Source of the DNA: Dictyophora rubrovolvata
Lineage: Eukaryota > Basidiomycota > Agaricomycetes > Phallales > Phallaceae
Length of the DNA: 64,000 bases
Assembly (NCBI GenBank): GCA_029959195.1
Contig: CP114127.1
Span: forward strand, 248,001 to 312,000
Direction: 5' to 3'
Made by a program: the position numbers and the translations under genes. Under the pieces are notes generated by a model that saw only the letters and a list, made by a program, of their open reading frames with translations, searched no databases and was not told the DNA's origin. How positions within the stretch are numbered: position 1 is the first letter of the stretch; each line of letters begins with the position of its first letter. Shown in pieces: positions 9,108 through 62,087 of this stretch.

Positions 9108-9116
9108 GAAAACTTT

Positions 9117-9576
9117 GAGTGATCAGTCGATTGTTCAGATCGATATCTCAGATCCAGCCGCTTAGGTGCATGGACCCCAGTCACGTAGTGTAATTTATAC
9201 TTTTTGTAAATATATAGGCTAGTGTTATTTTTTTCGCCTAAAGTTCGCCTAAAGCTGGATGAAGTAAGCCAAAAAGTAAAAAGGTTTGAGCGTCTTTCCA
9301 GAAATATAGCGGCAACAGGATTCGAACCAAGGGGGTTAAAAAAATCACAATTGCACGGGGTATGACCACTAAGGCATGCGATCACACTTTAGTTCCCTAC
9401 ATTTCAAACGCTATGAAAGTTATCTACTGAAACAATGCTACTGAGTTTTTGACACTAAAACCACGTCGAACGCGACATCTGCATTAATGAGTGTATTTAA
9501 GTAAAGTCCGGAAATTTTAGACCTGTATTAATCAATTGTATGAATTAAAAGTTGGGATAAAATCCAAAGGGTATGG
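9117..9576 (+). repeat. MULE-1 left terminal inverted repeat
   Basis: This 460-bp repeat is an inverted copy of 14465-14884. Similarity runs the whole way with small indels. The strongest block is near the tip: 55 bases with one mismatch, reading GGCTGGATCTGAGATATCGA in its centre when read outward, at about 9126-9180. The inner end overlaps the last codons of the transposase gene. A tRNA-like segment with a B-box-like GGTTCGAATCC lies within it (about 9310-9390, minus strand). Confidence 0.9.
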
Positions 9577-12500
9577 ATTCATGTGCAGAAGGTGGAGGTG
9601 CCGCTGAGAATCCGTTGGAAGGACCTGGCATGAATAATTCGAATTCATCTGTAATATATGTCTAAAAAGTGTTGGAATATTTTAAGATTAGACAAAGAAA
9701 GAAAAAAACCTTTATTGAAGCTTGTTGCAGCCCGGTGGGCAGCACTGAACCTGAACCCTGAGGTATGAGTTGGCTCAATCGCTCGTTCACATCTTTGAGG
9801 TCTTCTGTAAACTTCTTCAGTCGTTTACATTCTCTTTCAGACTTGTTATTTTCACTAGAGCGTTTGAGAGAATTCGCCACTGAGTCTATGGAGGCCTGAA
9901 CCTGTTTGGTCTTCTCCAGCAGTTTCGAAATTTCTGCGTCCTTTCCTTGTACAATCTTCTGCTGGGACGAAGCTAAACATTTTCAGAATATAGAAAAATA
10001 AAGTAACAAATAAAATATTACATTTCACTCTTATCCCTCTTAATAGCCTTTGAAAATGGGTTGAGCTCCGGTCGCGCGGCTGAATAGAATCATTAATCAA
10101 GAACTTCAGATTTCCAAGGGCTCGCGAGTCGAATTGCAGGCCGCGCATAATCCCAGCGAGCAGAGTAAGCATAGTCCCATCTCTGTTGATATTTCTATGG
10201 GCTTGTTCATTACCGTTTGTAGTTGAAAATGCCGCTCTCCAGCTATTCAACGGTATTCTGCTTTCAGGCCAGTATATTGCCGCTAAAGGATAAAACCCTT
10301 CAACGGGTTGCTTATCCTTCAACCAATCTAATAAATATTGTTAGTAACTGATAAACAAACATCACAGAACCCTACTTACCAACGGCTTTTTTCCCACCAG
10401 AGCAAATATAAGCTAGCATTGCGCTAAAATCTGGTAAAGGCTCTGCACTGGCTAAACTCATCATTGCAGAGAGTATAGACTCATCGACATGTCCTCTGAG
10501 CTTTGAAACATTGCGTGAGTAGTGTGCAAGGCAATACCGATAAAAACGTGTCAGGTGCTCTCTTGGACTGAGCGCATATAAGGGTCGCGTCCATTCGATT
10601 GAACAGTACCCATGTATGTTCTTGGATATTTCTTGACAATACAGTCCCAATCCTTTCCAGAAAAAAGATGTCAGATACATAGTAACAAAATTTGTTCCAA
10701 ACTCACCCAGAGCTTGACCGCGGTGTCCGTCGGCTGTGACAGTATCAACTCCATACCCGTGAATATGTCGGAATCGGATGGCTTGGCCAGTGTCAGCCTC
10801 GACGATAGTGAATATAAGCTTGAATAGTTGATAATGAGCGATTGCACTCTCTGAAGTCGTAATAGCTCGCGCAACGACCACAGCTATAGTAAAAAAATAT
10901 GAGTAAACATAGAGCATAATTTGTTTACTATGATAGTTCTTACAGCGGTCATACTCTGAAAACCAAGCCTCCATCTCAAATTCTTGCCAATTTTGGAGAC
11001 GTTTGAAGGAAGTGTCGATGGTTAACCGTGACGCTCCAAGTAAAAGCTCACTCATTTGTTGAAACATGCAGATAATAATAGTGAAGCTTCCCTCCTTGGA
11101 ATCACTGTATGTTTCGATGTGTCGAAGGTACCGCTTATCGGTGGGTAATTTTAAGTGTTCTTCTAACAAATATTTGGCACCTAAGATTTAAGTAAATAAA
11201 AGCTCAGATGTGTATACGATGCGGGTGCCTACCTTGCAGCCCAGTACCCGCCGGGTACTTCTCGTCTCGTAAGTTGTCAATTAATCGCGCAGCGTGATCG
11301 TAATTAGCTAAGGAAGGATGGAGATCACCAAGGCCTGGGTCCTGATGATTCTTCCACTCTAATATATCCCGCAAATTTTGCATAAATGAGTGATCCAGCA
11401 AAATGCGGCGGGGTGTGGCATCAGCCAATCTCCAGTCAAGCGGTGTGAGTAAGGATTCGAAAATTGCACGTATTGTTGCAGGAGTTTTTGTAGGCTGTGG
11501 CAGGGTATGTGAGTGTGGGTTTGTCGAAACGATCACAACAAATGGACACTGGTGGAGGTCGTTTGGCGTGAACATGTCAAAACGAGTGGAACAGTCTTCT
11601 GTTGGGATCATTTCACCGCGTTGTAAGATACCCTGGGAATCCCGATGCCAATGGGCTATCATCGCCATTAGCATACAAAGGGTGGAAAATATTTTTATTT
11701 TCAACTCACGACAAAGTCCTTTCTGTGCCCGCGTGACAACTGTAATATTGCAAGGTAGCAACGGACCATAGCCTTCGTCCGCCGCCCTACATTCGAACTC
11801 CCATATCTTCCTGGTGTTGGCCGTGAAGAGTGCAACAAGGTAGTCGATGTTGTACTCGCCAAGATTTCGAAGCCGCAGATGGTTGCGCCTCCCTTTCGAA
11901 TAGTGTTCACAACTTAATGCAGTTTTTAGTGCTAAGTTACACGTATTATGTATCTTAAAATGCTCACCGAATAAATAAATGGCCATATATATCACTGCAG
12001 ATTATCAGTTCTCCTCTACACTTTTGATTTTTGTGTGGCGAACGACAATCTTTTTTCACAAGAACAAGATTGTCCGGCATTGGATTGACAATCTGGGATT
12101 CACTGTCGCTATCTGGGTCTTCGTCCAGACATTCGGGATGAAGGCTGGAAAATGAGCATCCGTGGTCCTGCAACGCACAATAAAAACCGAGTGTCTTCAT
12201 AAAAACTTCGCCCCAGGTATCATATACCATTGAGGTGAAGGGCCCTCCGTTACCCGTTGGATTGAAAGAGCATTTTTTTGTAGAGCCGCCTAATTCCCAG
12301 AATATTAGTGAGTGAGTTCAGTTATAAATTCAGAATCACTTACATGTATAATGCGTTTTCTCACATTTAACAGGCATTCCTGTATCTTTGTTGCGAAGTA
12401 AAAAGCACGTAACATCTTTTGTTCCATTGTGCCTACCACCGGTGAGCGAATATTGAAGGTTATCTTTTGGGTGAACAAAATTGTCAGGATCTACGTGAAA

Positions 12501-12758
12501 TATGTGTGCAATAGCTACGCCCATTTGAGCCCCAGAGACTGGTGTTTCGACTATCGCGCCGGGTAAATGCTTTACAACGGCATCGACATATGTTTTCCGT
12601 GTTACTCGCCCCGATCCAAGCAGACATTGGACTGGCGTGAAGAAAACAGGAGGTGGTGAGACATAGGAATTGCAGAGAAAAGACGAATTAACAGAAACAT
12701 TAAAAGTAGAAATTTCAACGAGTGAAGGACAAAGAAAATCAGAGGGATGAGGTGACAT
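9545..12758 (-). CDS. MULE-1 transposase (DDE type, C-terminal coiled coil)
   Basis: A gene of about ten exons encoding a DDE transposase of an agaricomycete Mutator-like family. The N-terminal part has a Cys/His set (TCFLLRNKDTGMPVKCEKTH, then KKCSFNPTG) that could bind zinc. The catalytic order fits Mutator-like enzymes: first Asp in LTIDTSFKRL (about 11010-11035), second Asp in VTADGHRGQALG (about 10715-10750), a C-x2-H in CLAHYSRNV, and Glu in TTNGNEQAHRN (about 10190-10220). A basic coiled-coil region (about 9780-9960) follows. Splicing out a GT-AG intron at about 9662-9710 extends the C-terminus to FGFYPNF and stop TAA 9545-9547, inside the left TIR. Introns are consistent and I see no clear break, so it may be functional. 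Start 12758 is the best Met but not certain. Confidence 0.8.
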
Positions 12759-13311
12759 AAGGAAAGGAATGTTGGACTTTGGTAAGACGTCGAAATTCAG
12801 GGAAAAACGTCAAGGACTTTAGGCAAAAAAGTCGAGGTTTTTAAGCAAAAAACGTGTCGTATTTTTCTTTGTTTGTTTGCAAAGGCATATAACGGCTAAC
12901 TAATTCATTTCTTCAAGTTTCTGTGCGCTGGGGTAACGCGGAGCACATGACTCTGTCTCCCTATTGCATATAAGACCGCCGCAATTGGTTGGCTCAAAAA
13001 TAAAGAGATGACGAAGCTCTAAAAATTGGAGGTAGATAATTAATAATTTCTTTTTTTGGTATTTTTCTTCTCCGTTGACTCAAATGATCCTCCGGGATGG
13101 GGCGTCCCCAGTGTTTTTTGAGTGTGAAAAAACATAAATTATCGTTTGATTTTCACTCAATTTATTTACCTCGTGTTTTATGAATAGGACCCTGTCTTTA
13201 TTTATTTCTTCCCGAGACAATTTGAGGGCATATATAAGGTGGGCATGGGCACCGCAGCTAACTCAGCACTTCATCCTCATTCCCATTCTCCACAATCCTT
13301 TCTCATTGACA
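12759..13311. promoter_or_regulatory. Divergent promoter region inside MULE-1
   Basis: This 553-bp stretch separates the two divergent genes of MULE-1 and must hold both promoters. A TATATAA box lies at 13231-13237 on the plus strand, about 75 bases before the accessory gene start at 13312, followed by a pyrimidine-rich leader. On the other side (12760-12880) there are repeats of the type AAGTCGAGG and AAAAACGTC, which could be binding sites for the transposase or a host factor; that is inference. Confidence 0.55.
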
Positions 13312-14426
13312 ATGCAATATGCAATCGCCCACTCTCACTCTGCGCATTCCTTTTTTTCTAATCGAAACACCACAAGACGTTGGAGAGCCTCCCAGCGTGC
13401 CTTGAGGCTGCCTCTTTCCTTTCTTGACCCCGCTCTTCGCACACTTTATGTTTCTGCCATGGAACTACAAGCTGAGTCGCCCAACATCGTCACTTGCAAT
13501 CCTTTCAAAAAGGAAGCTGAAGAAACACCGTAGTATGTCTTCCTTTTATCCTTAGTTCTTATTTAATTTTCGATTTTTTCAGTCCACTTCACACCGGACG
13601 GTACTCCCACGCAGTGGCTGTAACGGCACTTGCAACATATGCTAGAGCACGAAGACTGGGCTGGTGCTGCTGGTGTTCATTGTGTGCCGAACGACCAAAG
13701 TTTGCAACATTCACGCAGGACCAACTTGGACCGTTTCTCGAGTGCTATGATTGCGGTTTCTATGGTAAGCATTTTCTGGCATATGTTTTCAATCCCTCAC
13801 TGAACTTCAAAACAGTTCCTTTGAATAAAACATATGAAACGGCAACTGAACTCGCAGGATATCCTTACACAGCAAATGGCGGTAAGTTGATCTTTTCATC
13901 ATTCCTGTTCCCCCGCTAAATTTCACAACAGCGCTTCAGCCAATTATAAAGGCCCTAGCCATTCCCGCTCCAGAGAGAAACCAACTCAGCCGAATTCGTC
14001 GCAATAAACGAGAAGTTCGTCGAGAATATAGTACCCGTAAGCTTTAGTTTTTTTTATATAATCAATGGAAATTAATTGTTATTCTAATTCTATCTAGCAT
14101 ACACTTTAAGGCCACGCATCAAAGTAAAAGTCGAAAGAAGCCCAAGCCCAGATTTACCTGGCACACTTGAAGGAATTCTCGCCGGTGTTAAATTATCTGA
14201 AGGAAAGAAACGTCAATCTACTTCCCAGAGGCAACACCGTTCTGCCAATTCCAGCACCCGAACACACAAACCGATGGAGATCTATGAAGAAGCACCTGCA
14301 GGTCATGATGACGACTCCACAAAGATCGAATTTTGCCCTTACTGTGGATCTGGGGTTGTTGAAGACCTTATGGAGAATCATTTGAAAGAAGACTGCATTG
14401 AATACGCAAACTACGGCTCAGACTGA
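13312..14426 (+). CDS. MULE-1 accessory zinc-binding protein, unknown function
   Basis: A five-exon gene that I do not recognise. With four GT-AG introns removed (after positions near 13529, 13764, 13877 and 14038) one open frame of about 270 codons results, ending at TGA 14424-14426. Exon phases all fit, so it looks intact. The start at 13312 is chosen because it follows the TATA box by a normal leader length and gives MQYAIAHSHSAHSFF. Two metal-binding-like parts are visible: a Cys-rich stretch CCWCSLC with ECYDC about 25 residues later, and a C-terminal finger CPYCGSGVVEDLMENHLKEDC (C-x2-C and a later H-x5-C). Between them lies a very basic segment (RIRRNKREVRREY). This suggests a nuclear DNA- or RNA-binding partner of the transposase, by inference from its place in the element. 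Confidence 0.75.
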
Positions 14427-14464
14427 GTTTTCCCTATAGCGTACTTACACTATTTCATAGCTTA

Positions 14465-14884
14465 GGATACCCTTAAATTTTACTCAAGCTTTTAATTCAT
14501 ATGCTCGATTAATACAAGTAGTACAAGTAGTAAATACACTAATTGATGCATCGCATTCGCAGTGGTTTTATTGTAAAAGACTTTCTCTATTGTTTCAGTA
14601 ACTAACCATCATAGCGTTTCAACTGTAGCAAATCTATGTGTGCTCTGTGGCCTAGTGCATACTGCTGGCTGTATGTCTTTTTTAAAGCTTCTTCGTTCGA
14701 TTCCCGTTCCCGCCATAATTTTGAAGACGCAGCTTACTTCATTCAGTTTTATTTTTGAACTTAGCGAAAAGAAAATGATGCCGTATAATATATTTTATTG
14801 AAGTATATAATGTGATGTGACTGGGGTCCATTCACCTAAGCGGCTGGATCTGAGATATCGATCTGAACAATCGACCCATAACTC
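14465..14884 (-). repeat. MULE-1 right terminal inverted repeat
   Basis: The inverted partner of 9117-9576. It begins 39 bases after the accessory gene stop and runs to the 9-bp target duplication. The block at 14821-14875 matches the left copy with one mismatch. It also holds a tRNA-like stretch, with an A-box-like TGGCCTAGTGC and a B-box-like GTTCGATTCCC at about 14651-14705. Confidence 0.9.
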
Positions 14885-15051
14885 GAAAACTTTTAATTCT
14901 ATCCGAAAACTGTGGGACAATCGCTATCTAACCGCACACTCGTTAACCTTCAGCTTCAGGTCTTAAGTCCATATTCCACTATCGAATAAACTGTAACGGC
15001 GTGAAGCGAGCTATTAATTTTTAAATACATAGAATTGGAAAGGCTGCATTT

Positions 15052-18000
15052 TCTTGTTTTTCTTTTTTTTTTTTTTTTTTTTTTTTTTTTGTGGAGCTAT
15101 AGTCAATAAAGTATTCGGACCTGGTCCGGCATTTAGAGACAGCTTGAGGAATCACGCGCGGTGACCTTACATAAGTGAGCATAATCCATAATCCTATTCC
15201 TAAACCGTTGTCGCCCTCAGGGGAAAAATGCCTTTACGCACGCCTCGAGTTGGAGGCAGTGTGGGACTCAGGGCGGTCGCCCGCGTGAAATACCCACTAA
15301 AAAACCCCTGATGCTGTCCTGTGTCAGGTTCTTTATCTCGTCGTTATGGAGGACCGGCCCCCATATGGCCTGGATTTTCCTGAAGTTTTTTGATTTCCTG
15401 CCATATTTGGGTCGCGTTGCCCTGATGTCGAAGTGTATCCGTTCCGCAAAGGTGTTAATCCAGGTATTGGTGAGTTCGTTGTGCAATGGTATCTTGTCCA
15501 GGTTGGATTCATGTTCGATTTTCCATTTGCAGCGGATCTTCCAATGTAGGAATGCGGTTTCCGCCATGAGGATGGTGTATAGGCTCGATTTTCCTCCTAA
15601 GGTTCTGTTGTCTGGGTCTTTGAACTTGACGGTTGAACTCCCTAGGATGGTTCCGATGTTTTTTTCCGGCCATGCGTATCCTGCATTCTCCCAGAGTTTT
15701 CGGGATAGTGCCCATAGGAGTTCATATTTTATAGCATTGCATTCCACCAGAATGTGAAGTAGGGATTCCATCATGTTGCAGCTTTGGCATAGACTGTAGT
15801 TCTCAGCATTAGGTATGTGGGTCCAGAACTCTCCTACTTTATATGCATTGTGTATTGATTTCCACAGGAAATGCTGTACTTCCTTACTCAGGTTCTTATT
15901 CTGGATTGACTTCCAGAGTCGTTTGTCTGTTGGGGGTTCGTCTGTGGCAATTTCCAGGTTAGTCTTGATGACATCTATCATGATTTCTGTTTTTTGCCTT
16001 TCGTGATAGGTTCTCTTTTGTACGAGAGCTTTGTATATCAGGGCTTGGGTTGCCATGGCTAGTTTGATGCCTCTTGTTTTGTGTGATTCCGGGATGTCGA
16101 GATTTAGGAGGTCGGCGTGGTTTTTTTGGAGGCCTTGGGCCGCTAGTCTATCCGCACCTTCGTTTCCTTCTATACCTGCATGACCTTTTACTTTTCTGAA
16201 GGTTGTTATGGAATTGCGGGATTTCAGCCAGGCCAGTATTGTTTGCAGGATTTCACTATTGGCATTTCTAGTCCAGCCTTCGTCTTCGTTCTTTTCGGCA
16301 TGCTTCGTGATTTGGTCTATTGCGTATTGTGAGTCAGTTCTGATTTCCAAATCTTCATCTTTTGGGGTCATTTGTAGGAGTTTGAGGATGGCTATGAGTT
16401 CTCCTGCGTTGTTCGTGTTGAAGCGTGGAGGCAGCTTAATTGTTGTGTTTCTAGGGTGGTTTTGTCCAAACCAGACCCCGCCGGCTGCGATTGCATTATC
16501 GCAGCCATTCTTGAGGCAGGCGCCATCGGTGTAGGCTACTATTTTATCTCTTTCCTGGGGAACTGGGTCTCTAGTAAGGGGAATTCTTGATATCTCGTTT
16601 TTTTTTATGAGGATTCTGAATCCGTTGTAGATTGACTGTACTGTGGTGTTGGGAATGAACTGGATAGCCGGTTCTAGGTCTTTGTTATCTTCTGGTTCCT
16701 CCCCCGGTTCCTCTGTCAGGGGGATCTGGCTATTTGGTCTTATCTCTGGGTTCCATTTTGGGGGTAGGAGGTTAAGTATGTGCCTTGTCACCTTATGGCA
16801 TGTTATGGGATTCCTGCAGCCGGCGTTCCTAATTTCTTTGCAGCTCGTGCATTGGCATGTTGGAGATTGTCGGTGGTTGTCTGGGAGCTTGCGGTTTACA
16901 AATTGTAATGCATTGCCCACTGTTTTAAGGTGGTGGTTTTCTCTCAGGCATATTCTGGATCCCATGTTCTACCCAAAGTTTTCATTTTCCAGACCAGTGT
17001 GGTACCATAGGGGCATGGCCGCTTTAGTTTCTTCAGAGATTTCGGGTCCGTCGATGATTGTGCCATGTTTATATGCAGTTGTAATCATCCACTTGATGTT
17101 TGTTGGGAGGGTGGAGTGGTGGTTTGTCTTCGGTTTCCATGATTGGAGGAATATATTTTCTGTAGTTTCAGGTAGGTCGGACCTGACACCATTGCGTGCA
17201 TTGTGTCTGATGGGTCTGTCGGCGAAGAAGGCCCACGAAGGCCTGGATGTGTCGGTTTTGAGATAACTCTTGAGTTTCATAAATTCTATTGCGTCGTTTC
17301 TCAGTTTAACATCTAAACATTTTTTTCCCCCCTTAGCGAGGGGTTGGTTCATGGTGTCGCTCTTTATGTCGGAGCGTTTTCCGTCCCAGAGGAAGTTTCT
17401 CACAAGTTTTTCGAGTTGGGAGAGGATGTCTTGAGGCATGCCTTGGACTCTTGTGAGGTACTGTGTTCGACCGCCTACTTCAATGTTTATAATGAGGCGC
17501 TTACCCTCTAGAGTCAGGCGGCATTTGCTCCATTCCTGTAGGTTATGTTTTATAGTGTCTAGTATGGGGGTCCAGATGGCGGTTTGGTCTATGTCATTTC
17601 CTAAGAAGCATCCTAAAACTCGGATTTGTTGGCCATCTGGTATAATAGGTATGTTGTTTGGGATTGGTTGGTGGTCTGGGTTAAGTTTTCTAGTTAAGGT
17701 TACGGCCAGCCTATGTTCTCACGTTCCGATCAGGAGGATGTTTGTTTTTGATAGGTTGAACTTGGCCCCGGAGGCTTGGCACCATGTTTCGAGAATGGTA
17801 TTCAGGTCCTGGAAGTTATCTTGTGCGGATAGGTAAGTTGTTGTATCGTCAGCGAATAGGGAGGCAATTAACCGAGAGTTTTTTTCGGGGATGCCGTATC
17901 CCTGAAGGGGGGAGATTCTGAGCATTTGGGCCAGGGACTCTATTGCAGTGTTGAACAGCAGGCATGAGAGGGGGTCACCTTGGCGGACTCCTCTTCTTAT

Positions 18001-19541
18001 TTTTATTGGTTCACTTATCATGCCGTTGAGGATTGCTACAGTTTCTGCATTTCGGTATTGGTTCTGGATTAGTTTGATGAATTTCCTGGGGAAGCCGAGT
18101 GCTGTTAGGGATGCCCAGAAGAAGTCATGTCGGATCTTATCATAGGCTTTCTCTTGGTCTAAGCTCACCATTGCACCATTTAATCCTAAGGTTTCTGCGT
18201 AGTTTACCATTGTTTGTGCCAGGTCAGTCTGGTCGAAGATCTGCCTCCCTTTCATGAACCCAGCTTGGTCTGGGTGGATTATTTCGGAGGCCATGGTCCC
18301 TAGTCTTTTCGTCAGTATTTTGGTCATGATTCTGTAGTCCGTATTGAGCACTGTTATAGGGCGGTAATTTCCTATGTCGGTTTTCTCCCCTTTTTTATAA
18401 ATTGGGCATAGCCATCCTTCACTGAATTTAAGGCCGGGATGTAGTCCACTGGTTTCAATGTCATTGAAGACTTTTTGTAGGATGGTGGCTATTTCTAACT
18501 TTGGGATTGGGGGGTGGTTCGGTTCTTTTGTTGGGGTGAAGTATAGAAGTTCCCTCCATAGTTCATTTGTTATTCCGTCGAGGCCCGCGGATGAAGCATT
18601 CGGCGATGTTCTGATTGCCATAATGATTTCTTGGGTGTTGATTTCTTCTTCTAGGAGTGCTTGGCTGTGTTGGGAGAGGCGGGTTGAGAGGTGTCATATT
18701 ACCCCCTCTATTTCAGCGGTTCGATCTTCCTGGCTTTGGTCAGTTGGTATGTCTGCCTTCTGGAGGTGTTCATGATGCCGTCGGGCTATGTCTGCCATGT
18801 GTCTGGATGATCTTGTTGTTACTGGGTGTTGTTCCAGTACATCTTGGAGACTGGTTATAGGAGTTTTGGTTTGTTTCATCTTATTTTGTCTTAGCCAGTG
18901 CTTTCCGAGTGTCTCTTTCTCCAGTTTTGCTTTGGTTGCAATGTTGGTTCTCTTCCGGAAGTGTTTGATTCTTGTGAGTTCAAAAATTTCGGCCTCGAGT
19001 GCATTAATTTTTATACTTTTTTCTTCCTCGTTTTGTCCTTGTAGATTTTTGATGCTGTCTAGAGATGTCTGCAGGTCTTTAATCCCTTTGTCTAACATGT
19101 AGCCCTGTTTCCCTGCATATTTCTTGGCTATGGTGATGATAAGGTTCTTCATTTTTTGGTAGTTTTCTTGTATGCTGTGGTTGTTTTCTATTTCATGTGC
19201 TAGTGGGACTGTTTTCTCACATATTTCTCTTAGGAATTTGTTGTTGTCAGTTACAAATGCCGGAATATACCAGCGGCCCCTTCCAGTTCTGGGCTCATTT
19301 GGGATTCGGATCCGCATTGAAATCATTTTGTGGTCGGTTTGAATAGCGGGTATGTCAATACCCCAATCATGTGAGAATTTAGTGTATTTTCGCGCAACAT
19401 ATATACGGTCTATTCGTGAATGTCTGTGTGTGCCGGTGTGTGAGTAGGTATATTCAAGTTTTGTTGGGAAGGTTTCTCTCCATCCGTCAACCGAGTCGGT
19501 GAAGTTTTTGTATGATTGTAGAGCTTCTACTCTTGTTTTTC
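15052..19541 (-). mobile_element. 5'-truncated LINE (endonuclease-RT-RNase H type) with 11-bp target duplication
   Basis: A non-LTR retrotransposon on the minus strand, body 15063-19530. Its poly(A) tail appears as a run of about 28 T at 15064-15091. A perfect direct repeat TCTTGTTTTTC flanks it at 15052-15062 and 19531-19541, a target-site duplication. The 5' end is missing: reading starts inside the endonuclease domain (HSRIDRIYVARKY, then TDHKMISMRIRIP). The 5' truncation, poly(A) and variable-length duplication are the classic outcome of target-primed reverse transcription. The domain order with an RNase H after the RT suggests the Tad1 or I-like clades; the clade is inferred. It sits 170 bp from MULE-1 and 230 bp upstream of the dehydrogenase copy at 19772. 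Confidence 0.92.
15268..19530 (-). pseudogene. LINE ORF2 remnant: partial endonuclease, reverse transcriptase, RNase H, zinc knuckle
   Basis: One reading frame runs through the element, interrupted by three in-frame stops (at about 18694, 17719 and 16969). Parts in order: end of an endonuclease domain; a coiled linker; reverse transcriptase (about 17720-18620) with PDQAGFMKGRQIFDQ, GVRQGDPLSCLLFN and the catalytic FADDTTTYL; an RNase H domain (about 16100-16560) with YTDGACLKNG, NNAGELIAIL, IRTDSQYAI and KVKGHAGIEGNEGADRLAAQG, so all acidic active-site residues are present; and a C-terminal zf-RVT-like knuckle (LCQSCNMMESLLHILVEC). The stop codons are two TGA and one TAG, compatible with C-to-T change. 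Few breaks suggest a moderately recent insertion, but no protein can be made. Confidence 0.9.
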
Positions 19542-29410: not shown

Positions 29411-29826
29411 GCCAGTGTCAGGGTACGCTAGCGTCGTCCCCTTATTTTTCTACATTTATCTTTGGTTCTGGTCTATTTTATTTATTTCCATATTTCTCGT
29501 ATTCTATCCCATCTCTTGCATTTCCCTCTCCTTCTGTATTCCCATTTTTCCTTCAACGGGCGCTGAGCGCCTGTTCTCATCAGGGCCATGGCCTAGGCCC
29601 CAGCTAAAAGTCTAGGACCAGCGTGTATCTGTGCCCAGTCCATGAACCAAAGGCCACGTGTGGCCTTCGCCGTTTCTCATAGTATATAGTTAGTAGCCCT
29701 AGAGGAGGGATCCCTAAGTTTGTTCTCTTAGGATCCCCTCCCTCTAGGTGAGTTAGTATTATTCCTAGAATATATTTTGCTTAGGATCCCCTCCCTCTAG
29801 TCTGAGAGAGTAGCCCTGACAGCCAG
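29411..29826 (+). mobile_element. Solo LTR, family A, inside MULE-2
   Basis: The LTR is 29416-29821 (406 bp). It begins TGTCAGGG and ends CCCTGACA, with a perfect 5-bp target duplication GCCAG on each side. No internal retrotransposon region is attached, so recombination between two LTRs has probably removed it. It has a pyrimidine-rich first half and GC-rich short palindromes in its centre. It interrupts the transposase between the first and second catalytic Asp. It is a fossil; superfamily not assigned. Confidence 0.93.
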
Positions 29827-30656
29827 CGTGGATCCTAACATCTTATCAGGAGCAGTCTTGCTCTCAGCCAACGTCAAAGCATCCACTCTTTTGAAGTACT
29901 TACAAGAAACAGAGCTCAGAGTCATTGAGTGGGCAAAGGTTATTGTAGCTGGTATGTGCGACAACATCTTTACATATATAACAATTATCTCAGTTGCCGC
30001 TCAGACCCCAGCTACATTAAACATCATCGCCAAATTGAGAAGGGGCAAATTATACATATATCTAAGCAAATTGTCATGCAGAAAAATTGGAGTGTTCATA
30101 AGTGGATGATTGATAAGTGTAAAACTTCGTTGCAGGCCATACTCCAATGTAGGTTTTTGTTTGCTTGAGCTCTTATTGCGTATACAAAACTAAAACTATT
30201 CTATTTAGTTAATGCTTCTGCACGAGTTTACATTTGCCAATTCCATATAGTCCAGGCCATCCAGCATTTGGAAGGTGATAGTGGACGTGTGGAAGGAGCC
30301 CCCCGAATGCCATATCGCTTGACCTATAAAATCATCAGGGCTTTTCATAGGCTTCAAAGGTGTCGCACTGACACTGAATGGCCTACCTTTCACGAAAGAT
30401 TCAGGAAAGAGCTATGGGCTGCATGTCGTGATGAGGAGGTTAATGAGAATGATATTGTCAATTCAGATGAGGAGAATTCAGTTGAAGAAGTGCCACCCCC
30501 CCCACAAGTTACAAAGAAGCAAAGCACTCAATGACTATCATCCAAAGGTCATGAAAAAATGGGAATGGAATGGTACAGCTTTTTAACCAATTATTTTGAT
30601 AAATACTGGTTCAACGATCGGTGGTTGAGTGAGCTTCTTGTTTTTAGTATAATTTT

Positions 30657-31223
30657 AGCTTGTTGCGCATGAAAACGCCGTACAAGGAGAAACAGTAGAA
30701 ATTGATGCTTTGGGCTTAGTACTACCCAAGCCGGAATAACCAATACTCACACAGCCCGTCCCTCTTATATGCACCGACATTGTGTTCCCTAAGACAATTA
30801 TAAAGGCCGTGTCATGTTTTTTTTCTTGGTTTCACATTCCATTTTCATATTTTCCCTTATTTTACATTTTAATCACTCAGCGAAACCCTTTTCTTTCTCT
30901 TAAATTCCAATCCCCAGACCATGAATTCATTTTTCCACATGGTTTTACCTTGTTTTGTTCACATTTAGATTACAAGTGTTCTGTTTTTCACTTGGACACT
31001 GAGTTACTCATGTATATAAAAATCCGCGGTTTTAAGACCAACAATATCATTGAATTCCTTGGTTTTGTATCGCAGCTTTTCCCTCAGTCTGAATTCGAGG
31101 AAATAAGCTTTATTTTTTTCCTCTACATTTACAATTCCTATCCTACACTATTTTCCTTGACTCACACTCATCCTTTGGTTCCCTTTCCTTCCTGTTCACT
31201 CCTGTTGCGCACGTATCAAGCTT
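30657..31223 (+). mobile_element. Solo-LTR-like insertion, family C, inside MULE-2
   Basis: A 557-bp unit (30662-31218) flanked by a perfect 5-bp repeat AGCTT. Its right end (GGTTCCCTTTCCTTCC, then TTGCGCACGTATCA) resembles the end of the family-B unit at 23963-24243 and a segment near 51830-51890. A TATAAA lies in its left part and a pyrimidine-rich stretch in its right part. The transposase frame stops on its left and resumes on its right. The terminal bases are not a clean TG...CA pair, so the exact edges and class are less certain than for family A. Confidence 0.55.
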
Positions 31224-31652
31224 GAGGTTCAAATTTTATATGACAGGACACATCACAGATATGTCATTACCTCTGGAGAAGACCAGGGATGGATCAAATA
31301 ATACAAATAATTGGGCAGAAAGTGCATTTCTGATATTTGATAAAGTATTTTTGGACATGCGAAAAAATAAATGGTACACCTCGCCTCATTTGCTCATTAT
31401 ATTCTTCTTGGTGTTAACCTCGACTGGTAGGATTGATCGACTAGGTGCTATTCTACTCAACAAGTGGTTCCTGTTTTATGAAGAAACCAAGCAAAATCTA
31501 GCTACAATTCTGGCCCAAATTCAGGACGAAATAGGACGTGCATATGAGATGTGGGATTCAAACTGGATTGATGAAGTGGAGAGTCGCATATTTTGTGTGT
31601 GTTTCCATAAGTAAGTGCTTTATATATATATCTTCTCTTCTTATTGAAAACG

Positions 31653-32070
31653 GTTGTTGTCAGGGCTACTCTTCTCAGACTAGAGGGAGGGGATCCTAAG
31701 TAAGATATATTCTAGGAATAATACTAACTCACCTAGAGGGAGGGGATCCTAAGAGAACAAACTTAGGGATCCCTCCTCTAGGGCTACTAACTATATACTA
31801 TGAAAAATGGCGAAGGCCACACGCGGCCTTTGGTTCATGGACTGGGTGCGGATATACGCCAGTCCCAGACTTTTAGCTGGGGCCTAGGCCATGGCCCTGA
31901 TGAGAACGGGTGCTCAGTGCCCGTTGAAGGAAAAATGGGAATACGGAAGGAGAGGGAAATACAAGAGATGGGATAGAATACAAGAAATATAGAAATAAAT
32001 AAAATAGACCAGAACCAAAGATAAATGTAGAAAAATAAGGGGGACGACGCTAGCATACCCTGACAGTTGT
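31653..32070 (-). mobile_element. Solo LTR, family A, inverted, inside MULE-2
   Basis: The LTR is 31658-32065 (408 bp), in opposite orientation to the copy at 29416-29821. A perfect 5-bp duplication GTTGT flanks it. Because the two copies point in opposite directions and have different target duplications, they are independent solo LTRs, not the two ends of one element. It interrupts the transposase between the catalytic Glu and the SWIM-like finger. Confidence 0.93.
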
Positions 32071-59453: not shown

Positions 59454-62087
59454 CTAGTAGTTTCTCCTGGGTACATGTAAAGTATTTCCTTGCTGGGCCC
59501 AATACATACCATTCTCCGGAGCAGGACTATCCCCAGGCGTAGAAAATGTTCCCCAGTCCCTTGGAACAGGCTTTCGGGTGACCGGTTTTCGTCCTTGCAA
59601 ACGACGTTTCACCGAATTGCTAAACACCTTAGAAATGGAGGAAAAAATACCAGATTGGTGGGCTCTGCCTGAGCTTGTAGCAGCTTGCGTTTGCATCTGC
59701 TGATTCGTTGGAAGCCGGTCGTTGAATCGAACAGCCTTCCCTCCCACCATTTCTGCTAAACTTGTATCCTGCCTGAGTATGTTGCCTAGGGTCTTGTTTG
59801 ACGTGTCTGGCGTTTTCGGGAAATCTTCTTCTATAGATGACTCAGTGTATGTGCCAGGACTATGACCATGGCGTATCTGCGGTCCTTGAATGTCGGTAAA
59901 AGTAGCTGTCGTCGAAGCTCCCGTCATCCATGCAGGCGCCGATTCCTCTGTTGTCGCGGTCATAGACACCTCTCTGCCTGCTGAAGTCACTGCTAGCCGT
60001 CTAAGCTCATAATTGTGAGCGATTTGACCGTTCACTCCTTTTCCATTCTTATTTCCATCCGATATGACACCAGAGTGACTTTCGGTCAAAGATTGAACTC
60101 CCCGAAGTTCTGGCCGACTCCGCTCCATCCCATTCGTCTTCTCCGCCGCTTGGACCTTTCTTGCAGACGAAGAGATGACTCGATCACTATGCGCGGCTGC
60201 GCCATCGCTTGCGTCTCTCCTAGTCGATGAAGCAAACGATCCATCTCTAAGCGGAGAAGGTGGAAGCGGCTTTTGAGTCATCAATACACCCTCCGGTTCC
60301 GGCGTCAAGAGCTGCAGCATCAAAGGTGCCGGAGGTGAATTGTGCAAGGCAGGTTCGTTGATTGCGGCTGTGTTGACTGCATTGTTGTTTGTAGTTAAGA
60401 CAGACGTACTAGCTTGATGCACGTGGCTCGCTGTATCGTGAAGAATGCCGTCACTGGGGATCATTCGAGACGACGCTGGTGTTTCGGGGGTGTTATGGCA
60501 CTTGGATCCCGCAACTGCTTTCTGATCTGGCAGGATCGTTTGGGAGGAAGCAGGCGGCGTGTCTGTCACGACATGCGGAACACTGGGCACACCATGGTCG
60601 ACTGAGCACCGGGTGTGGCAACATTCTACAGGATCGATGTTTGGAGTTAGGACAGACGTACTAGCCTGATGCACGTGGCTTGCCGTATCGTGAAGACTGC
60701 CGTCACTGGGGATCGTTCGAGACGCTGGTGTTTCGGGGTGGTTACAGCACTTGCCTCCTGCAGCTGCTTTCTGATCTGACAGGATCCTTTGAGAGGAGGC
60801 AGGCGGCGCGTCTACTACGACGCACGGAACACTGGGCACACCATGGTCGACCGAGCACCGGGCCCCATTGTGGCAACACTCTACAGGACCGCTGCCCGTA
60901 GTTAGGACGGACGTACTAGCCTGATGCACGTGGCTTGCTGTATCGTGAGGAATGCCGTCACCGGGGATCGTTCGAGACGCTGGTGTTGCGAGGGTGTTAC
61001 AGCACTTGTATCCCGCAGCTGCTTTCTGATCTTGCAAGATCGTTTGGGAGGGAGCAGGCGGCGCGTCTGCAACGACATGCGGAACACTGGGCACACCATG
61101 GTCGACCGAGCACCGGGCCCCACTCTGGCAACATTCTACAGGAAAATGTTGAGGGCAACGGAGAACAATATGAACGCATCCTGAATGGCAACATGATGCT
61201 GCCACTGAACCTCTATCGGCACTGCTGGCAGGCTCTGGCGTACCATGGTTAAGGTGCTTATCGCCGGCCGCAGGTTGTAGTGGTGCAGATGGGGACAGTG
61301 TTTGCGTATCTGTATTTATTGTTGGCGTTTTGATCGAAGTTGTGTCTGGGGCGAAAGTTGGTGAAGGAAGTTGACTCTCGGTGTCGTTTGGCTCGGTGAC
61401 TATAGGAGTGTGATGCTCTGTTTCCAAACGTACTTGAAGGGTGCAAGCCTAACAAGGGTTGGCACGACTTACTCAATGGTTCTGCAGACCCGAAAAGCCT
61501 CCGATCTCTCTCCCAGCGTTCTAGTTGTCTTAGAGTAAAGTCTGGCGGTGCAACAAGCGACTGCTTTGTGAATGTCCCGTATCCGGGGTACGGGCGGAAA
61601 TTTGACAGCTTGCAGCATCGTTTTATAAGTCGATCCTTCATTTGGCTTATTGATCGATGGTTAATATGCGAAAAATAGCAGTTGACATACTTTGGCTTGG
61701 CGATAGGTGGCAACACGCCTCAAGTTACAATCGGCGGATCCGCTCTTCTGAAGCTCCTGAATCAATTCAATGTACACGTAAATACCCCTCAGTTCAATGT
61801 TGAATCTCTTTCTGATTACCTGTTCTTCAACATCCAATAGTCGTGCGTAGCACCGTGCAATGACAGGCGGCAGGAGCACGCGATATTCGTCCCGAATGTC
61901 TGTGCACTGTTACGTACTGTCAGTACTATCATCACAATAAACCTGCAAAACGTCGCTTTCTTACTTGTAACCACCTCCATCCTGAATAACCGATAGGCGT
62001 CCTTGCCTCCGGCTCCAAACATCCTCGATTGTCGGTGTTTATAGCACCACGCTGCGCTGAAGAAAAAGTACCAAAAGACGCGGACAT
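59454..62087 (-). CDS. Paralogue A of a tandem pair, unknown family, long repeat-bearing tail
   Basis: The start at 62087 (MSASFGTFSSAQRGAINTDN) leads to a conserved domain of about 130 residues in four short exons: YSGWRWLQ, CTDIRDEYRVLLPPVIARCY, ARLLDVEEQ, then KRCCKLSNFRPYPGYGTFTK and APPDFTLRQLERWERDRR. After a short intron (about 61440-61480) comes one exon of more than 650 codons, Ser/Thr/Pro-rich and low in order, ending WAQQGNTLHVPRRNY at 59454. The tail has three tandem units of about 84 residues (60391-61142), each with a Cys/His set (PVECCH, CSVDHGVPSVP, KCCN) and HDTASHVHQASTSVL. I do not recognise the family. The neighbour at 62728-63646 shares the domain but not the tail. Confidence 0.65.
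60391..61142. repeat. Three tandem coding repeats of about 250 bp
   Basis: Units start near 60391, 60643 and 60897, each marked by GACAGACGTACTAGC-like sequence, with lengths of about 252, 254 and 246 bases. Being multiples of three (or nearly so) they keep the reading frame of paralogue A. Copies are very similar in DNA as well as protein, which points to recent unequal crossing over and likely copy-number variation between strains. Confidence 0.85.

Follow-up and report, generated by a model that had tools for sequence, protein, structure and literature searches.

The locus described here raises the question of whether two neighbouring fungal genes are ordinary host genes or the cargo of a single mobile element and, in the latter case, to which kind of transposon they belong. 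It lies in a 64,000-nucleotide stretch of Dictyophora rubrovolvata DNA (positions 248001-312000 of contig C11), referred to below as the window; the genome searched is that one genome, 28.2 Mb on 11 contigs. Our analysis indicates, with a probability of roughly 85%, that the 5768-bp segment between two perfect copies of GAAAACTTT is a low-copy, recently mobile and probably autonomous cut-and-paste DNA transposon with two genes, one for a predicted transposase and the other, gene B, for a predicted small protein.

The evidence for a transposon comes from its copies. A DNA search of the genome with the element returned at least 24 match rows, among them three full-length copies, located in the window, at C9:827693-833462 and at C10:1062143-1067910. 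Each of the three is flanked by a perfect 9-bp duplication different from those of the other two (GAAAACTTT, TGGCACCGG and TGTACAGTG, respectively). In the window, GAAAACTTT is found on the plus strand only at the two borders of the element and once more on the minus strand, at 16975. The C10 copy splits a predicted MFS-type transporter gene: its flanks, translated and searched separately, both match MFS_1, the left one over profile positions 2-127 and the right one over positions 126-186, and since these are adjacent parts of the profile, both sides belonged to one gene before the insertion. We read the locus as a transposon because the perfect duplications differ at all three full-length copies, the ends are shared and one copy sits inside a gene. 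The same observations, made on three contigs, leave practically no room for the view that two host genes lie between chance repeats or were spread by segmental duplication. The initial annotation had proposed a complete transposon with a perfect 9-bp duplication, and this is confirmed: further copies share its GAGT termini, those on C9 and C10 repeat the two-gene layout between duplications of their own, and both genes have an open frame in the window copy.

In addition to the full-length copies, we found a right-hand piece of 1660 bp at C11:1758837, a single broken copy scattered over C5:716801-731174, and, at C5:866539, an isolated 80 bp of tip (90% identical), for which the 9 kb read contained no partner arm. 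Four further weak rows represent sister-family pieces (C7:2136937, C11:229417 and C11:229088) and a relative of gene B (C5:435310). The terminal 30 bp occur nine times in the genome with zero mismatches, always inside the copies listed (control, 0), and a genome-wide search allowing up to three mismatches to this tip yielded no non-autonomous derivatives beyond them. For neither the window site nor the C9 site did the genome contain a further version lacking the element. Single-protein patterns, which reach close relatives only, revealed no relatives outside it in viral_contigs or genome_contigs. Similar unnamed proteins are presumably present in mushroom-forming fungi.

Both termini of the element start with GAGT (left, GAGTGATCAGTCGATTG; right, as reverse complement, GAGTTATGGGTCGATTG). 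The 460- and 420-bp terminal inverted repeats (TIRs) reported by the initial annotation are real, and their length and ends hold; tight conservation is confined to the 68-bp tip, where 64 of 68 positions are identical, and the inner part is old and diverged. When the inner arms are aligned to each other, 266 of 329 columns match and there are 80 additional gap columns; this alignment scored 122.5, while 100 shuffles averaged 18.8 and did not exceed 32.5. We also considered tRNA genes or RNA polymerase III promoters in the TIRs and rejected them, given that neither Rfam nor ARAGORN identified a tRNA there. B-box-like stretches are found at matching places in the two TIRs (9319-9327 on the minus strand, GTTCGAATC, and 14695-14703 on the plus strand, GTTCGATTC); the whole window contains 28 B-box-like matches, and an A-box-like match upstream of the stretch is present in the right arm only. 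These stretches are perhaps tRNA-derived or remnants of RNA polymerase III promoters.

The gene models were drawn by hand and predicted from the sequence, with introns running from GT to AG (Table 1). As the initial annotation had described, the two multi-exon genes are divergently oriented and read through in the window copy. The C9 copy retains an open gene B, and a one-base insertion in its transposase changes the residues from 871 on; the C10 copy has two internal stops in the transposase and one in gene B. The gene B product is zinc-finger-like, with a Cys-rich motif near its middle and a CxxC..H..C motif at its C-terminus. Stretches conserved across relatives of the transposase are I-[DEN]-T-x-FK, TADG, Y-C-x-x-H and N-x-NEQ-x-HRNIN, and the TADG, CxxH and TTN/TSN..NEQ motifs are kept in the relatives that cover those regions. 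We infer from this that D510, D585, E724 and C633/H636 are candidate catalytic residues. The D of TADG is present in 6/6 rows and C633, H636 and E724 in 7/7, while position 510 is D in four of the six covering rows and E or N in one row each.

Table 1 Coordinates of the element and its predicted genes, counted from the first nucleotide of the window
Feature	Position	Strand	Basis
Left target duplication, 9 bp, GAAAACTTT	9108-9116		Sequence match
Transposon, 5768 bp	9117-14884		Shared ends with other full-length copies
Left TIR tip, 68 bp	9117-9184	+	64/68 identical to right tip
Inner left inverted-repeat arm, diverged	9185-9574	+	Alignment to inner right arm
Transposase model, 9 exons, 882 aa	9662-12758	-	Open frame, GT..AG at 8/8 introns
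Transposase exons	12758-12344, 12289-11968, 11912-11710, 11655-11233, 11180-10944, 10883-10707, 10652-10380, 10327-10029, 9961-9662	-	
Gene B model, 5 exons, 300 or 251 aa	13312-14426	+	Open frame
Gene B exons	13312 or 13459-13532, 13583-13764, 13816-13881, 13932-14036, 14098-14426	+	
Inner right inverted-repeat arm, diverged	14469-14816	-	Alignment to inner left arm
Right TIR tip, 68 bp	14817-14884	-	64/68 identical to left tip
Right target duplication, 9 bp, GAAAACTTT	14885-14893		Sequence match

The substitutions that separate the copies provide a record of their decay. Over 5768 bp, the window and C9 copies show only 9 and 10 private substitutions, respectively, and two one-base indels. 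In the C10 copy, 52 of 62 private substitutions are C:G>T:A, and 45 of these 52 fall in CpG and 7 in CpA, against a background in which CpG accounts for 458 of 2414 cytosine contexts. The piece at C11:1758k has the same bias (17/18 in CpG), which is less pure in the largest C5 piece (90/129 in CpG, 30/129 in CpA). Older copies decay mainly by C-to-T changes at CpG. Repeat-induced point mutation was rejected as the cause in view of the CpG and CpA counts of the C10 copy, and the pattern points instead to CpG methylation as the probable driver. Together with the short GT..AG introns, this CpG decay would be in keeping with a basidiomycete host.

The arrangement of the two genes extends beyond this family. 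Searched at the protein level with the transposase core, the genome yielded 35 rows at E ≤ 0.001, own-family copies among them. Other transposase relatives are located at C11:216k, C3:500k, C11:228k, C3:526k, C7:2136k and C11:429k (28-67% protein identity by piece), and those at C11:216k and C3:500k share 96-97% DNA identity. Relatives of gene B lie divergent from the transposase at C11:228k (E 7.7e-6), with the C-terminal CxxC..H..C motif next in order as a weak match, and at C11:216k (E 4.3e-4), and the sister copy at C3:500k has one too (4.1e-5 in a single-sequence search). The best E among 300 shuffled gene B controls was 0.025. By these matches, the divergent layout of transposase and gene B recurs in two further families. 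No gene B match at E ≤ 1 was found beside C3:526k, C7:2136k and C11:429k, where the pieces cover little or none of the expected stretch. The family 2 element (C11:227417-233086) has 161-bp TIRs at 96% and a two-gene divergent layout, and its terminal 30-32 bp recur in other contexts at C7:78532, C2:313919, C3:494637 and, less well, C5:2408379. Family 3 is represented by two copies (C3:494870-501885 and C11:212123-218271), which are 96-97% identical and have precise shared ends.

Several observations weigh against an intact two-gene transposon with a DDE-type transposase. The window copy carries private amino-acid changes, for which reason its activity is not certain. The candidate residue D510 is replaced by E or N in one family each, and both of these copies look degenerate. 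When compared with Pfam, the whole transposase gave 10 weak matches, none of them over the cut-off, and gene B had none over the cut-off either; the best matches, likewise below it, are coiled-coil-like (Swi5, E 0.0014 with only the last exon and 0.059 with the whole protein). An AlphaFold2 model of an intron-containing frame, built on a 10-row alignment, reached a predicted local distance difference test score of 37, which leaves the DDE fold unproved. For a relative of gene B at C5:435205-435586 (E 3e-24, 42-59% identity by piece), the 8 kb read contained no transposase match. Finally, target duplications were found neither around the single family 2 copy nor around the two family 3 copies, and the ends of family 3 are inverted repeats over no more than about 4 bp.

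The family to which the transposase belongs is a separate issue. The element works like Mutator in that it makes 9-bp duplications, and on balance we hold it to be somewhat probable that it is a true, very diverged member of the Mutator superfamily (Mutator-like elements, MULEs). According to the accessible part of PMC6446971, MULEs make 8-11 bp duplications, often have long TIRs and contain extra open reading frames in MuDR (mudrB), Mutyl (mutB) and Hiun; the element has duplications of 9 bp at 3/3 full-length copies, as well as long TIRs and a second gene. Read by eye, its motif order (IDTSFKR / TADGH / CLAH / TTNGNE) follows that of MULE proteins of the same genome (IDGTF / ITDTD / CKFH / TTNHLE). 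Profile searches gave no such link. The MULE domain PF10551 did not match the whole transposase at E ≤ 10 in a search in which a MULE control scored 1.8e-10, nor any of the 5/5 aligned family members at E ≤ 1, and the three places at which it was found in the genome, two of them over the cut-off, do not include this transposase family. An hhalign comparison with two MULEs of the same genome returned E-values of 0.47-0.68, which are not significant, without aligning the motifs, at an effective sequence number (Neff) below 2. Searches of the PDB with the transposase gave only noise. These results would fit a separate, unnamed transposase lineage outside the MULEs that also makes 9-bp duplications, and matches to the KDZ domain (PF18758) and the hAT dimerisation domain (PF05699) are absent too: at E ≤ 1 they occur at seven and eight places in the genome, respectively, none in this family, and neither matches the whole protein. 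However, the motif order resembles that of MULEs, and because the profiles are shallow, a missing match is lack of proof rather than proof of difference, so that we regard such a lineage as a doubtful alternative. It is more doubtful still that this would be a eukaryotic DDE lineage unable to transpose without a divergently transcribed zinc-finger partner, the two having co-evolved across several families. The Mutator-like assignment of the initial annotation is therefore upheld for the 9-bp duplications and long TIRs and not for the Pfam, PDB and profile tests; the label is likely but unproved, and it is carried only by the duplication, the long inverted repeats and the motifs read by eye.

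A further matter is whether gene B takes part in transposition at all. It could be a passenger captured from the host, as additional open reading frames of MULEs are often assumed to be host-derived (PMC6446971, in the part available), and the relative at C5:435k, near which no transposase was detected, is in line with this. On the other hand, a gene B relative in divergent orientation accompanies the transposase in two more families, the transposases sharing only 28-67% identity by piece, and we thus consider a passenger role unlikely.

If the locus is indeed an autonomous transposon, the following mechanism can be proposed. The 882-aa protein would be a transposase of the DDE type, bearing zinc-finger-like Cys/His motifs at its N-terminus, that binds the tips and excises the element. 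It would join the excised element to target DNA cleaved with a 9-bp stagger, and repair would then produce the duplication. Analogy with mutB, mudrB and the Vandal and Hiun proteins suggests that gene B encodes a small zinc-binding accessory protein that aids binding, insertion or escape from silencing. Host CpG methylation, suggested by the C-to-T changes at CpG, would silence and erode old copies.

Two-gene MULEs have already been described, and the two-gene design is thus known in kind. A second gene in a fungal DNA transposon, which the initial annotation called unusual, is not unheard of: Mutyl of Yarrowia lipolytica, as far as it is described in the accessible parts of PMC6446971 and PMC9865632, resembles the element in having two open reading frames, 9-10 bp duplications and zinc-finger motifs, and complete Mutyl with mutA and mutB is present in some Yarrowia strains (PMC9865632). 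By description rather than sequence, its TIR of 22 bp differs from the approximately 460/420 bp found here, and PMC6446971 describes mutB in one place as lying in the "same orientation" and in another as "antisense", whereas gene B is divergent. Maize MuDR shares two genes (mudrA and mudrB), long TIRs and 9-bp duplications with the element (PMC6446971), and PMC2774946 likewise gives 9-bp duplications, with TIRs of about 215 bp. Unlike in MuDR, the transposase of the element has no PF10551 match. The MuDR genes are convergent, whereas those of the element are divergent. In Agaricus bisporus, a non-autonomous TIR element with 9-mer duplications (CTAAAGTCC, GTCTGGGTG) and TIRs of 93-96 bp lacks an intact transposase gene, in contrast to the element here (PMC10051438, accessible part). 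Kyakuja-Dileera-Zisupton (KDZ) elements are fungal multi-gene DNA transposons as well, but Zisupton duplications are 8 bp long, and the term "9-bp" does not occur in the available portion of that text on fungal transposons with extra genes (PMC12730594); the KDZ domain, present elsewhere in this genome, is absent from the element's transposase. Among the papers listed by literature searches, and going by titles and abstract openings, none was identifiable as describing this element.

Other repeats were noted in its surroundings. About 160 bp from the element, a T-run (15049-15090) is followed by long minus-strand frames (15271-19539), and by eye the region 15049-19539 resembles a non-long-terminal-repeat retrotransposon with a poly(A) tail. 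A second inverted-repeat pair at 29416-32065, with 370-nt arms at 95%, 34-nt outer arms at 88% and the ends TGTCAGGGTA and TACCCTGACA, looks like another TIR element, around which no flanking duplication of at least 7 bp was found; ends similar to its own flank breaks of the C5 copy, as if it had inserted there. At 60391-61143, a 255-bp unit is present in three tandem copies with 86% matches. Elsewhere, tRNA matches are densely packed close to the end of contig C3, and this region (C3:3106929-3113731) is perhaps mitochondrial DNA.

Since neither gene has a Pfam match above the cut-off, annotation would probably list both as unrelated hypothetical genes, and a profile of the transposase would aid in detecting and masking elements of this kind in other fungi. 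One copy, on C10, interrupts a predicted transporter gene. Overall, the near-identical pair of window and C9 copies, together with an old conserved gene pair, provides a way to test the role of an accessory gene in fungal transposition and the manner in which CpG-biased decay disables transposons.

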